From: an uncultured Clostridia bacterium
Lineage (GTDB): Bacteria > Bacillota > Clostridia > Christensenellales > Borkfalkiaceae
Reading direction: 5' to 3'
DNA: 50,868 nucleotides
Assembly (NCBI GenBank): GCA_947629665.1
Contig: CANREJ010000008.1
Coordinates: forward strand, 1 to 50,868
The notes below the pieces were generated by a model. It was given only the letters and a program-made list of their open reading frames with translations. It ran no database searches and was not told the DNA's origin. Below, piece by piece: positions 36,611 through 48,460 of this stretch. Every line of letters starts with the position of its first letter. Within the stretch, counting starts at the first letter, position 1. The position numbers and the translations under genes were made by a program.

Positions 36611-38803
36611 TTATCTGGTCCACTCCCACTGGCAGTTGTTTGTGCCGTTGTAGGTGGCCTTTAAATATTTTGCGGCTATGCTCTTGTCCGCCAGATCGCC
36701 CGCGTTAAGCGTTTTGTTGTTGGCTTTCCAGCCCGTGAGACCGTTGAAGTCCACACTCGTGAGGGCGGAAACGCCCGAAAACGCCAGCCTGCCTATCGTG
36801 CGGCATTGGCTTCCCGAAGCAAACGCAACGCTCACAAGATTCGGCTTGTAACTATCGTACACCGTAGAGAAGTTAAACATAAAGGCGGGTAACCTGGTTG
36901 CGCTTGCGCCCACGGTCATTTTAACTCCCGTGCCGTTGGTTCCCATTCCCTCAAACACATAGTCCGACGACCCGAAATTTGCGCAGGACTCGGCGTTGAA
37001 GTTCAACGTTTCCACCTCGCGCATAAAGGCAAACGCCTCCTTGCCAATCTTTGTTACTCCCTTGCCGATATTCAGCGTTTTTGCGGAGCGCAGGTTCACA
37101 AAGGCAAAGTCGTGTATGGTCTGCACGCTGTCCGGAATTGTGAGGGTGGTTGCCTCATTTCCGTTTATATACAGCTTTTTGGCGTAATAAATTGGATTGG
37201 ATTCCTCCTCCGCAAAGGATATTTTGCACCAGCTTTCAATGTCGCTTATATTCACGCGCGTGAGCGAGGTGATGTAGTTGAACGCAAACCTTCCCACGCT
37301 TGTGAGGTTGCCCTCCGGCTCAAAAGTTACGGTAGTCATATTTACGGTATAGTCATCGTCTATCATGGCGTGCGGCACAAACAGGTAGGAGGGAATTGAC
37401 TTTACTTCCTTGCCTATAACGCAGTCTATGCCGCTTCCGTTTGTGCCCGCATATGCAAAAATATAGTTGTAGTCCGGATTCTGTATGCTCACTTCACGCG
37501 CGCGGTACTCCAATCTTTCCAAATTCCTCATGTACGCAAAGGCGTATTGCCCCATATAGCTCACGCCCTCGCCTATAACAAGTTCGGTTACGCGCGAACA
37601 GTTCATCATCGCCCCGTATAAAACGGCTCCGCCGCGGATTGTTACCGAAGTAAGCCCCGACGGGATATAGAAAGTCCTCTCCCCCGAAGATTGCTGCTTG
37701 AATTTCTGGGTTATGCTAACGCCGCCCGAATACGCGGCCGAACCGAAGATATACCCGAAGAGCGATTGTTCCGATGGCGTTGTGGACGAGGAATAGCCCT
37801 TGTTGCCCACAAACGGCAGGTTTATGCTTTTGAGCGACCCGCAATCCGTGAATGCGCCGTTTTCAATCTCCGTTACGCTGTCGGGCACTTTTACGCCCGT
37901 AACGGAAGAATTTGCAAAGGCGTGAGCCGCTATTTTTGTAACGGGCTTGCCCAAATGGGTCTTGGGGATATTGATTTCTTTTTCCGTTGCACTGCCTATG
38001 CCCGTGAGCGTATATGCCGAACCGTTTTCGGCAAATTGCAAATTTTCGGTAAACTTTTCTTCGCCGCAACGTGCGCACACGCCGTTTTTGTAGTCGTGGC
38101 CGAGAGCTTTTATTTCCGTCTGCTGTTCAAAAACAGTGTTACAGCGGCTGCAATAGCTCCCCTTTGTTTTGCCCGGCGACGTGCATGTGGCCTCCACGGC
38201 AGGCTGGGTAACGGTGCTGTGCCCCAATGCGGGAATCACCTGTTCTGTGCGCTCACGGCAGACCGTACAAACGGCATAGCGCATTCCCGCAGACGTGCAT
38301 GTGGCCTCCGTTTGGGTTACCCACGTTTGGTAGCTGTGCCCCGTTGCGGGCACCGTCTCCGTCTTGGTGTGCGCGCTGTTCCTGTTGCAGGTAAACAGCT
38401 TTTCGCCCGCATGTTCGCAGTCGGGTGGGGAAGTGATAACCCCGTTATCCCAATCGTGCCCCAGGGCGTCAACCTTTTTTGTTTCGGTCTTTGTGCATTT
38501 AAGGCATTTGCGCCTGTTTAGACCGTCCGTCTCGCAGGTGGCGGCCTCGACCGTCTCCCATTCGTCCCAATCGTGCCCCAGGGCGGCCACAACCCGCGTT
38601 TCCATTTGTCCGCATTCGCAACTGCGCTGTTCACTGCCCTCGTTTTCGCAGTCGGGCGCCTCAACCAATTCCCATTCGCCGAACGAGTGGGTGTGTTCGC
38701 CGGAATTGCCGCCGCCGAAACTTCCGCCGAAAATTTCGCAAGCGGACAGGGCGGTCAAGGCCAGCATGCCTAAAAGCAACAGAGCCAAAATTTTCTTTTT
38801 CAT
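36611..38803 (-). CDS. BspA-type leucine-rich repeat lipoprotein with Cys repeats
   Basis: This 730-residue protein has a lipoprotein signal (MKKKILALLLLGMLALTALSAC, cysteine 22). Residues about 35-270 are six repeats of roughly 40 residues, each with a Cys-rich pair and ending in ALGHDWD/ALGHST-like text. Then come BspA-type leucine-rich repeats (phrases such as VTKIAAHAFANSSVTGVKVP and LTRVNISDIESW). It probably sits on the cell surface and binds host or matrix material. AGGAGG is ideally spaced before the ATG. Its message begins with a structured leader that ends in a strong terminator just before this gene (38831-38861). Confidence 0.88.
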   Translation of the reverse strand: MKKKILALLLLGMLALTALSACEIFGGSFGGGNSGEHTHSFGEWELVEAPDCENEGSEQRSCECGQMETRVVAALGHDWDEWETVEAATCETDGLNRRKCLKCTKTETKKVDALGHDWDNGVITSPPDCEHAGEKLFTCNRNSAHTKTETVPATGHSYQTWVTQTEATCTSAGMRYAVCTVCRERTEQVIPALGHSTVTQPAVEATCTSPGKTKGSYCSRCNTVFEQQTEIKALGHDYKNGVCARCGEEKFTENLQFAENGSAYTLTGIGSATEKEINIPKTHLGKPVTKIAAHAFANSSVTGVKVPDSVTEIENGAFTDCGSLKSINLPFVGNKGYSSSTTPSEQSLFGYIFGSAAYSGGVSITQKFKQQSSGERTFYIPSGLTSVTIRGGAVLYGAMMNCSRVTELVIGEGVSYMGQYAFAYMRNLERLEYRAREVSIQNPDYNYIFAYAGTNGSGIDCVIGKEVKSIPSYLFVPHAMIDDDYTVNMTTVTFEPEGNLTSVGRFAFNYITSLTRVNISDIESWCKISFAEEESNPIYYAKKLYINGNEATTLTIPDSVQTIHDFAFVNLRSAKTLNIGKGVTKIGKEAFAFMREVETLNFNAESCANFGSSDYVFEGMGTNGTGVKMTVGASATRLPAFMFNFSTVYDSYKPNLVSVAFASGSQCRTIGRLAFSGVSALTSVDFNGLTGWKANNKTLNAGDLADKSIAAKYLKATYNGTNNCQWEWTR

Positions 38804-38830
38804 TATCTGCCTCCTTTTTTTGCGGCAAAT

Positions 38831-38861
38831 AAAAAAGTGCCGCATCCGTAAGGAGCGGCAC
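38831..38861 (-). terminator. Leader terminator upstream of BspA gene
   Basis: Minus strand GTGCCGC pairs with GCGGCAC (38837-38861), followed by TTTTTT (38831-38836). It lies between the promoter and the gene, so full-length mRNA requires read-through or antitermination. Confidence 0.85.
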
Positions 38862-39112
38862 CTGTAAAAGCCCCCCTTACAGTTGCTACACATCGAATAC
38901 AATATACACCCGACAGCGTGGCACGGTTGAAAAAGTGTGCGGCACGGTTGAAAGAATCGGAAATATCGTACAGAAATAAGGGAACGCCGTTACCGATGTT
39001 TCCTTTTCCGATTCTTCCCGTTTAAAGCCGAAATTATGTATAGTTGCGGTTTTTGGGGGTGTATTTAGATGTGTAGCATTAACATTATAGCACACCGTCC
39101 CCCAAATTGCAA
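38837..39112 (-). promoter_or_regulatory. BspA promoter and structured leader (element copy 3)
   Basis: Minus strand TTGCAA (39107-39112), 17-base spacer, TATAAT (39084-39089). From about +1, TGCTACACATC (39068-39078) pairs exactly with GATGTGTAGCA (38884-38894). Inside, TACACCC pairs with GGGTGTA, and AAGAATCGGAAA (39005-39016) pairs perfectly with 38952-38963. After the closing stem, CTGTAA pairs with TTACAG, and GTAAGG (38875-38880) can instead pair with CCTTAC (38848-38853) in the terminator loop. This is the layout of an RNA switch. Ligand unknown; not a T-box. Confidence 0.65.
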
Positions 39113-39119
39113 CACCCTT

Positions 39120-39148
39120 GCCGCGTTTTGTAATAAATAACTTTTTAT
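39120..39148. repeat. Direct repeat flanking the BspA gene, copy 2
   Basis: Partner of 36520-36550, same orientation, differing by a TA deletion. It ends just upstream of the BspA leader promoter. Confidence 0.65.
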
Positions 39149-39197
39149 TATAGATTTTGAAATCCCGCCCAAACTGTTGCAAATCCTACATATAAAC

Positions 39198-39231
39198 CAC
39201 AGCGGCGCAGATATAAACCTGCACCGCTGTG
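39198..39231 (-). terminator. Hairpin after SLOG-type gene
   Basis: CACAGCGGCGCAG and CTGCACCGCTGTG pair with one mismatch around a short loop, about 30 bases after the stop. It probably ends the transcript, although the T tract is weak. Confidence 0.6.
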
Positions 39232-39259
39232 TACACTTTGCGGAAAGTAATCCAAAATC

Positions 39260-39784
39260 TTAAAAACGTTCCGGGAAGGAACGTGCCGACAGAGGTTTAT
39301 GGTTTTTTTTAACTCCGCCGGGTGCAAAATTAATAAAGTTTTTATGCGATTTTACGGCATATTCGTAGGCTTTGTACGCCCCGCTGTTCTCACTCTCCTT
39401 CACATAAAACAACACCAAATCGCTTTGGGCTATCATGGCGCAGTTGCGGTAATATATGGAAGTGTACCACCAATCAAATTCTTTCATGGGGCACTCAATG
39501 CTTTCATATTCCTTTTTCTCGAACCAGACGGGCGGTTTTCGCAGATGTTTTTCAAGCGGAAAACAAAATACCCTCTTTATTCCAAGTTCCGGCAATTCCG
39601 CCCGCTTTTTTGATACCAGGTCATACACAAGCGAGTCAAAATCGCTTCTGCCGCCAAACAGAAAGGTACGGAAACCGTCCGCAATCGCCCTGTCTATTTC
39701 CTCACTTGTCCGCTCTTCCAGCTCGCGGGTTATTTCAACGTCGAAGTGCCCGAAGCAAGAACATACTTTTTCATTTTCGCACAT
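39260..39784 (-). CDS. SLOG-superfamily (DUF1273-like) protein
   Basis: This 174-residue protein resembles YpsA/DUF1273 members of the SLOG (Rossmann-like nucleotide-binding) superfamily: CSCFGHFDVEITRELEERT, IADGFRTFLFGGRSDFD, and MIAQSDLVLFYVKESENSGAY near the C-terminus, the segment where SLOG proteins bind ligand. The role of such single-domain proteins is uncertain; in other contexts SLOG domains bind NAD- or ADP-ribose-type signals. The ATG at MCENEKV was chosen because longer frames run into the leader RNA. Its AAGGGGG binding site lies inside a hairpin that the leader can form or open. Confidence 0.75.
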   Translation of the reverse strand: MCENEKVCSCFGHFDVEITRELEERTSEEIDRAIADGFRTFLFGGRSDFDSLVYDLVSKKRAELPELGIKRVFCFPLEKHLRKPPVWFEKKEYESIECPMKEFDWWYTSIYYRNCAMIAQSDLVLFYVKESENSGAYKAYEYAVKSHKNFINFAPGGVKKNHKPLSARSFPERF

Positions 39785-40042
39785 AAGAAGCGCCGCCCCC
39801 TTTATTTTAAGGAACGGCGTCCGTAGAATACCGTTCCCCGGTTGCGACCCCATTAAAACCTCTTTATTTCCGTGAAAACAAATCAGCCCGGAACAGGTAT
39901 TTCTACCAATATTCTGTGATTTGTATTACGGAAATATAATCAATCAATGCAAAAAACAGACTCCCCCGCCGGGGAAGAAAACAGAGGTTGATTTTTAATA
40001 AGGTCGCATTAGTATTATACCACGGTTATTTTAAAATATCAA
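39785..40042 (-). promoter_or_regulatory. SLOG-gene promoter and structured leader (element copy 1)
   Basis: Minus strand TTGATA (40037-40042), 17-base spacer, TATAAT (40014-40019). TGCGACC (40002-40008) at about +1 pairs with GGTCGCA (39843-39849); AACCTCT (39983-39989) pairs with AGAGGTT (39857-39863); a two-part stem pairs 39917-39935 with 39866-39885. After the closing stem, GGAACGG can pair with CCGTTCC, or CGCCGTTCC can pair with GGGGCGGCG, which contains the gene's ribosome binding site. The choices are mutually exclusive, so translation could be switched. Confidence 0.65.
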
Positions 40043-40063
40043 CAATAAAACCGCACGCGGCGC

Positions 40064-40282
40064 AAAATTAAGGGCGCCGCCCATTGGGAACGGCGCCCGT
40101 AGTATACCGTTCCTTGGTTGCGACGCCAACAAACTCTTTCATGTAGAGAAAACAGTTCGAAACAAGTATGACTACCATTATCTTTATGTTTTCTCTACAC
40201 ATGAAATATGCACTTTTGGCAAAAAATTTATATTAAATTGGCGTCGCATAAGTATTATAGCATGCCCAACCGAAAATATCAA
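40064..40282 (-). ncRNA. Promoter plus about 180-nt terminated RNA (element copy 2)
   Basis: Minus strand TTGATA (40277-40282), 17-base spacer, TATAAT (40254-40259). TGCGACGCCAA (40238-40248) pairs with TTGGCGTCGCA (40119-40129). Inside, an almost perfect 18-bp hairpin pairs 40187-40206 with 40137-40154. After the closing stem, GGAACGG (40107-40113) can pair with 40087-40093, competing with a strong terminator (40072-40098, GGGCGCCG/CGGCGCCC, tail TTAATTTT). It lies in tandem upstream of copy 1, 240 bases apart at the -35 boxes. It may be a small RNA or the first gate of a double leader for the SLOG gene. Confidence 0.65.
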
Positions 40283-48385: not shown

Positions 48386-48460
48386 TGGGGCGTCGCCAAG
48401 CGGTAAGGCAACGGACTCTGACTCCGTCATTCGGGTGTTCGAATCACTTCGCCCCAGCCA
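48386..48460 (+). tRNA. tRNA-Gln (CUG)
   Basis: The acceptor TGGGGCG pairs fully with CGCCCCA, the discriminator is G and CCA is encoded. The anticodon arm ACGGA-CTCTGAC-TCCGT gives anticodon CUG. The T loop TTCGAAT is standard. The T stem GGGTG/CACTT contains two G-T pairs, slightly weaker than usual; because an integrase gene follows, the 3' half may have been rewritten by element insertion. Confidence 0.93.
48435..48460. other. Probable attachment site of an integrated element
   Basis: The 3' part of tRNA-Gln, from the T loop to CCA, is the usual target of tyrosine integrases, and an integrase gene reading towards it begins about 100 bases away. The matching second copy would lie beyond the right edge of the window, so the exact core cannot be given. 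Confidence 0.5.

Follow-up and report, generated by a model that had tools for sequence, protein, structure and literature searches.

What do three copies of a structured leader, all on the minus strand of one gut Clostridia contig and placed ahead of a SLOG gene and of a surface lipoprotein gene, have in common, and do they act as a regulatory RNA? The window examined here, a stretch of 50,868 nucleotides, comes from a draft genome of 1.86 Mb, in which it forms contig C8, and the three copies are referred to as units c1, c2, and c3 (Table 1). A first-pass annotation had ascribed to them a shared plan of promoter, closing stem near +1, inner hairpin, and competing 3' hairpins, and this plan is present in all three. 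So are the consensus promoters that it described, with a spacer of 17 in 3 of 3 copies, and the terminators that it assigned to two copies, in the form of terminator-like hairpins closing 40248-40064 and 39078-38831. In the remaining copy (40008-39785), which had been said to hide the SLOG ribosome binding site, the 3' arm of the last hairpin does carry that site, AAAGGGGG (39796-39803), 11 nt upstream of the SLOG ATG at 39784. The motifs TGGTAG, ATAC, and TGTT, noted earlier in the SLOG-side copies, are common to the loops of c1 and c2. A feature that had been overlooked is the complementarity of the apical loop to the tail (GGAAC-GGTAT-nCTAC), which implies a pseudoknot-type pairing in addition to the local hairpins.

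Three leader units in the window

Folded as single strands, the units were more stable than dinucleotide shuffles (z of -7.1 for c1, -5.4 for c2, and -5.3 for c3), with 0 of 200 shuffles folding as well as the real sequence in each case. The closing and inner stems of c1 and c2, each taken alone, were matched by 0 of 500 shuffles. The apical-tail pairing was matched by 13 (c1) and 2 (c2) of 500 shuffles and the tail-terminator pairing by 14 (c1) and 35 (c2) of 500. Judged from single copies, the predicted switch pairings are thus only suggestive, and the case for them rests on the whole family. Unit c3 is a marginal match to the covariance model of the family (E 0.45, and 0.095 in another run); its own pairings were matched by 1 of 500 shuffles (apical-tail), 0 of 500 (tail-terminator), 0 of 500 (closing stem), and 35 of 500 (inner stem P3), and it is a divergent yet real member. 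The genome carries a fourth unit on contig C47 (L196:3389-3524). Orthologues of c1 and c2 are found in genome G014 at L003:1751-1940 and L003:1486-1694, respectively. Unit c3 and the lipoprotein gene (36611-39112) separate the SLOG gene from an aminotransferase gene in the window, and in G014 those two genes adjoin.

Table 1. Positions of the leader units, their parts, and the adjoining genes in the window.
Feature	Position	Strand	Remarks
Unit c1	40064..40248	-	Stand-alone RNA: P1, P3, apical core, tail, terminator-like hairpin; next unit follows, no gene
c1 promoter, TTGATA-17-TATAAT	40254..40282	-	-35 at 40277-40282, -10 at 40254-40259; promoter type family-wide
c1 closing stem P1, 5' arm	40238..40248	-	3' arm 40119-40129; covariation
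c1 apical core: GGTAG and segment A (ATAC-TTGTTTC)	40159..40178	-	
c1 tail T (GGAACGGTATACTAC)	40099..40113	-	Partner is A or T' (40087-40093)
c1 terminator-like hairpin	40072..40098	-	Followed by TTAATTTT
Unit c2	39785..40008	-	Leader of SLOG gene
c2 promoter, TTGATA-17-TATAAT	40014..40042	-	-35 at 40037-40042, -10 at 40014-40019
c2 closing stem P1, 5' arm	39993..40008	-	3' arm 39843-39858
c2 variable GC hairpin P2	39961..39977	-	
c2 apical core: GGTAG and segment A (AATACC-T-GTTCC)	39890..39909	-	
c2 tail T (GGAACGGTATTCTAC)	39823..39837	-	
c2 expression-platform hairpin	39790..39821	-	Includes T' (39811-39817) and SLOG ribosome binding site (39796-39803)
SLOG (YpsA-clade) gene	39260..39784	-	Putatively controlled by c2
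Unit c3	38831..39078	-	Divergent member; leader of surface lipoprotein gene
c3 promoter, TTGCAA-17-TATAAT	39084..39112	-	-35 at 39107-39112, -10 at 39084-39089
c3 closing stem P1	39057-39078 paired with 38884-38911	-	Internal loop present
c3 apical core with segment A (GTTCCCTTA)	38977..38997	-	
c3 tail T (TGTAAGGGGGGCTTTTAC)	38864..38881	-	Partner is A or CCTTAC at 38848-38853
c3 terminator hairpin	38836..38863	-	Followed by T run
BspA-type LRR surface lipoprotein gene (PF13306)	36611..38803	-	Downstream of c3

Distribution of the RNA family

Across the whole window, the 4227 models of Rfam 15 matched only a tRNA (48386-48457). For copies 1-3, four chance families alone appeared down to E≤10 and the gathering threshold was not reached; the models of the c-di-GMP-I and -II riboswitches and of the T-box were absent among these matches up to E 10. 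Twenty loci from relatives gave only RNase P and a tRNA, both outside the units, and nothing came near threshold in the units of L140 and L172 (best E 0.00099, for a plant-type microRNA model, 30.5 of 119 bits). These results agree with the first-pass annotation, which had recognised no known riboswitch class. In the openly accessible journal literature, no description was found of a leader RNA for SLOG/DUF1273 or BspA LRR genes or of a Christensenellaceae riboswitch candidate, and the terms SLOG, YpsA, DUF1273, and leucine-rich are absent from the main text of two genome-wide RNA surveys (PMC11109978, PMC8632094).

Homologues were clear in a DNA search of 101 genomes, where the hits under about 1e-9, along with several of the weaker hits, were units; among the weakest hits inspected, L009 was a promoter-like stretch only and L020 contained no unit. 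A covariance model built from ten units (R1) matched 22 of 396 genomes of the order at E≤0.001. A second model, built from 47 R1 matches (R2), matched 68 of 201 genomes of the family at E≤0.05, of which about 10 would be expected by chance from its own E-values, themselves rough. At the level of the class, R2 matched 5 of 391 genomes, including one from outside the order, and across the phylum the genome of the window was the sole match among 398. Of 42 weak R2 hits checked by architecture, 29 passed a promoter-plus-P1 check. The tail pattern alone picked out 19 stretches in a set of 84,980 species genomes, every one of them from a metagenome bin titled Clostridia or Clostridiales, and had no match in a viral collection. 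Several copies per genome are common, up to 9 matches being found in G964. With copies 1 and 2 counted once despite being listed twice, and without a truncated unit (L077:6109) and five rows judged by eye to be chance or antisense, 115 RNAs in 95 clusters were counted, fourteen of these clusters having 2 to 4 units.

The patchy distribution, the dispersed copies, and contigs that end at units are what a mobile element or DNA repeat with no regulatory role might leave behind. Such an element is scarcely credible here, because pairing is kept despite sequence change, the order of promoter, P1, platform, and gene is fixed, the same neighbours occur in G014, and, for the sequences tested, collections of phages, plasmids, and viruses gave no match. 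A match to a known unrelated element, such as a mobile repeat, had been named beforehand as grounds for abandoning the regulatory reading, and the Rfam comparison returned none. The units are a real, large, and uncatalogued family of putative cis-acting RNA switches in gut Clostridia. Its interest lies in its many copies, strong covariation, missing Rfam entry, and two distinct kinds of target gene, in hosts that are abundant in guts and mostly uncultured.

Covariation and competing pairings

In a typical unit, the promoter is followed by the closing stem P1, in many units by a variable GC hairpin, and then by the inner stem P3, a hairpin (P4) whose loop contains or adjoins GGUAG, segment A, the 3' arms of P3 and P1, the tail T, and a last hairpin that contains T'. 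Promoter scores of at least 9 of 12 were obtained for 106 of the 115 RNAs, compared with 35 of 345 random places; the spacer is 17 in 102 of these 106, and the end of the -10 box lies 4-6 nt from P1 in 86 of them. P1 has a length of 9-33 bp as detected, mostly 10-20. The automatic promoter-plus-P1 check was failed by 14 of the 115 RNAs and by 13 of the 42 weak hits.

Arms pair markedly better with their own partners than with those of other RNAs. Among the 80 dereplicated of the 115 RNAs, the mean P1 duplex was -25.5 kcal/mol with its own partner and -14.6 kcal/mol with the arms of other RNAs, and the corresponding values for P3 were -15.4 and -6.4 kcal/mol (0 of 5000 permutations for each stem). 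In 63 dereplicated RNAs, the apical-tail duplex averaged -18.8 own and -13.7 swapped, and the tail-T' duplex -17.0 own and -12.0 swapped, again with 0 of 5000 shuffles as good. The left and right arms of P4, and its right arm and the tail, were also coupled (0 of 5000 each; 47 dereplicated of 101 RNAs), whereas the left arm and the tail, a non-helix control in the same set, were uncoupled (4061 of 5000). All four main couplings were repeated (0 of 5000 each) in the 42 weak hits, which had been used in no model.

Partner shuffles ignore relatedness, which is controlled in part by swapping partners between nearest relatives. Of 57 such pairs, the swap made P1 worse in 54 and better in 2 (p 4e-14), P3 worse in 49 and better in 8 (p 3e-8), the apical-tail duplex worse in 39 and better in 13 (p 4e-4), and the tail-T' duplex worse in 37 and better in 15 (p 0.003). 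P4 became worse in 35 and better in 12 of 50 pairs (p 0.001), the effect on P4 right-tail was weak (29 worse, 14 better; p 0.03), and the non-helix control showed none (p 0.16). At pairs 1-12 of P1, both sides had changed in 26 to 49 of 63 to 73 dereplicated RNAs; the percentage paired in P1 is inflated because P1 was located by maximal pairing, and the shuffles and nearest-relative swaps serve as its controls. Tail, apical segment, and T' change jointly, as GGAAC/GUUCC/GUUCC in c2, UGCGA/UCGCA/UCGCA in L104, and GUAAGG/CCCUUA/CCUUAC in c3. The own partner ranked first among all partners in only 10 of 63 RNAs for the apical-tail pairing and 17 of 63 for tail-T', as many RNAs share sequence types, and in one exceptional unit (L080:6106) the GUAG-CUAC pairing is broken (GGCAG with CTAC).

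The covariation first suspected from three copies thus extends to homologues with compensatory changes: the covariance-model search proposed at the outset recovered them from gut Clostridia, and the 115-RNA partner shuffles gave 0 of 5000. A conserved structured leader with covariation, as expected of a riboswitch, is therefore present, and an expression platform with mutually exclusive pairings, its hairpin bearing a U run or a Shine-Dalgarno sequence, can be read at the sequence level. Chance structure was set aside, given that the folds beat shuffles and the pairings covary. Other candidates were also discarded. An initial P4 (GGTA with TACC, used in R1 and R2) was replaced by the hairpin presenting GGUAG, and a pairing between the tail and an AGAATA segment 5' of P4 was abandoned, since P4 left and tail are uncoupled. 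A leader peptide was considered because copy 2 has a frame (MGSQPGNGILR..) that leads into SLOG, and L058 and others have similar frames; L054 reads ATG GCG TAG at that position, and the conservation was accordingly read as that of RNA, not peptide.

A predicted switch and its target genes

The reading given here a probability of roughly three in four is that each unit is a self-contained leader RNA working like an attenuator or riboswitch, in which the tail T would choose between A and T'. Transcription would start 5-9 nt past the -10 box, so that the first nucleotides enter P1, and P1 and P3 would form a scaffold whose sequence is free provided that pairing holds. On P3 would stand the hairpin P4 with its conserved GGUAG loop, followed by segment A, while T, directly after P1, would be able to pair either with A (and the GUAG of the loop) or with T', which lies in the last hairpin, in its 5' arm or loop. 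On paper these states exclude each other: T cannot pair with A and T' simultaneously, and T' is unavailable to T while in the last hairpin. The two alternatives have similar mean duplex energies (-18.8 and -17.0), as is required of a switch. Because A is transcribed before T', it could capture T first; T' would then be left free, the last hairpin would form, and expression would be off. Were A or the GGUAG loop held, presumably by a small effector, T would pair with T', the last hairpin would be blocked, and expression would be on. Capture of T by A is accordingly taken as the default off state and an occupied GGUAG hairpin as the on state; the polarity may also be the reverse. So simple a design, with a tail that selects either an upstream apical loop or the following hairpin, lends itself to reporter tests.

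The last hairpin takes two forms. In SLOG leaders, it often contains the ribosome binding site and ends just before the ATG, and in most other leaders it is a terminator upstream of a separate ribosome binding site. A distance of at most 12 nt from hairpin to ATG was found in 30 of 47 SLOG leaders versus 12 of 48 others, and a Shine-Dalgarno-like arm in 28 of 47 versus 14 of 48; in non-SLOG leaders, a U-rich stretch comes first and the median distance to the ATG is 23 nt. Combining two kinds of platform with one architecture is typical of riboswitches, with which the units also have in common the leader position, a structured receptor-like 5' part, mutually exclusive pairings, and tandem copies. 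They differ from riboswitches in a promoter fixed 4-6 nt before the closing stem, in a promoter of its own for every tandem unit, and in a switch strand whose partner, an apical loop, lies 100-180 nt upstream. The units would work in the manner of a riboswitch and are candidate members of that kind; a new riboswitch-like attenuator class is the best reading.

The same attenuator could instead respond to an RNA-binding protein (as with PyrR, ANTAR, or LicT-type proteins), perhaps the SLOG protein itself in feedback. Attenuators of the pyr type, which contain the PyrR binding site, follow a three-tier logic of anti-antiterminator, antiterminator, and terminator, and this logic is common to both systems; the GGUAG loop of the units is moreover conserved, including a G that is dispensable for tail pairing. 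The match of L140 to the PyrR model is weak and insignificant (23.8 bits versus a gathering score of 54), the top tier of the units is a loop-tail pairing, and no pyrimidine genes were seen. A protein effector is rather doubtful, given that no candidate protein was found, that the RNA also leads unrelated genes, and that 4 of the 5 SLOG genes in the genome of the window lack it.

Among riboswitches proper, those for c-di-GMP also control surface proteins in Clostridia and form tandem arrays, tandem c-di-GMP-II riboswitches upstream of a surface anchor gene being described in PMC9481103, but copies 1-3 match no such Rfam model even at E≤10. A tentative extension of the attenuator reading, with the odds against it, is that the units are a new orphan riboswitch class, so far confined to one group of gut Clostridia, in which the GGUAG hairpin would bind a signalling nucleotide or NAD-derived compound and so coordinate SLOG nucleotide sensors with surface lipoproteins; the class would have spread as a promoter-to-platform cassette, with stems rewritten between tandem copies and switch parts kept. 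The nucleotide ligand is a guess, drawn only from the link to NAD or ADP-ribose that PMC6459960 suggests for the YpsA clade. An effector, if found, would show what triggers the response of YpsA-type SLOG proteins, which are poorly understood, and would explain the tie between SLOG expression and surface proteins.

YpsA-type SLOG genes lie downstream of 47 of the 95 clusters and account for 30 of 102 downstream frames in later sets, counts that are biased because R1 was seeded with ten RNAs mostly upstream of SLOG and R2 descends from these. Of the non-SLOG frames of at least 150 aa, 20 of 45 were lipoprotein-like, compared with 15 of 132 frames elsewhere in those loci (Fisher p 6e-6); a regular expression, rather than a trained predictor, served to recognise lipoproteins, and tandem RNAs may point to one gene in both the downstream-frame and lipoprotein counts. 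Several of the exported lipoproteins behind relatives' RNAs carry BspA-type leucine-rich repeats, as does the window gene. Both kinds of gene that the first-pass annotation had placed under a candidate new RNA regulator hence recur in other genomes. SLOG and lipoprotein genes are dominant; small coiled-coil proteins of 141-156 aa (L137-L144, one genome), Rho-N/SAP-like proteins (named by eye), one GmrSD-type protein, and others are also present. Apart from three of 70 late-set RNA clusters, several RNAs lack a gene within reach or are followed by short frames only. In one locus (L171:2436-4142), the unit is upstream of a GmrSD-type gene that matches the HEC-05 candidate defence family. Units in L072 and L070 adjoin genes that by eye resemble guaA (in L072 also purA and purB).

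The window SLOG protein reached no Pfam family, PF06908 included. Its place in the YpsA family is indicated by relatives: PF06908 was matched by 4 of 11 aligned SLOG members with the leader, a joint SLOG profile found YpsA 2nx2 at E 9.9e-6, and the window protein has 62-68% identity to six relatives and 32% identity to the L058 protein, which matches PF06908. In four loci (L057, L074, L084, L169), SLOG genes adjoin a gene for an exported protein of about 410 aa with a signal peptide and, by eye, a ..F.Q.IP..GLYC-like motif; it is possibly a functional partner of SLOG, and its L169 copy had no Pfam match. An RNA unit stands at only 1 of the 5 SLOG genes in the genome of the window; others (L199, L200, L201) appear by eye to have a promoter almost at the ATG, an opposite-strand regulator gene, and no RNA unit.

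Type III toxin-antitoxin systems likewise have a repeated structured RNA upstream of a small protein gene, and the RNA might by analogy neutralise the SLOG protein, whose overproduction can stop division. The 155-190 aa proteins behind the RNA, the tandem RNA copies, and the filamentation described for Bacillus subtilis overproducing YpsA (PMC6459960) are in line with such a pair. It is very improbable all the same, for the RNA is shared by several unrelated downstream families (lipoproteins, Rho-N/SAP-like proteins, and others) rather than reserved for a single family of toxin genes, it includes an expression platform, and SLOG genes occur without it in the same genome.

Tandem and stand-alone units

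Upstream units of tandem clusters of 2-4 make up 20 of the 115 RNAs. In 20 neighbouring tandem pairs, identity was 0.76 in the promoter, 0.75 in the apical part, and 0.85 in the tail and terminator, and only 0.55 in the 5' stem region, compared with 0.53 when shuffled, with pairing still kept. The orthologues of c1 and c2 in G014 keep their own stems, so the difference between the c1 and c2 stems is older than that split. The suggestion that c1 and c2 doubly gate the SLOG gene is doubtful, because each unit, including the one adjoining the gene, carries its own promoter.

As pure cis switches, stand-alone tandem units make little sense. They might be trans-acting small RNAs, with A and T of different copies pairing and units such as c1 acting as sponges or regulators of the gene-linked copy; units with their own promoter and terminator exist, and the tandem copies resemble each other in promoter and tail and differ in their stems as much as shuffled ones. 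That the units work in this way is unlikely, since the large majority of units are directly upstream of a same-strand gene, A and T are coupled within each RNA, and some upstream units look like leftovers of duplication. In L054:6058-7682, three units are interspersed with fragments of SLOG genes, a pattern that would fit duplication of RNA-gene units and later decay of the genes. In L146:1906-2922, four tandem units have near-identical promoters and tails and different stems; no gene is directly behind them, and a SLOG domain is encoded about 1.7 kb downstream.
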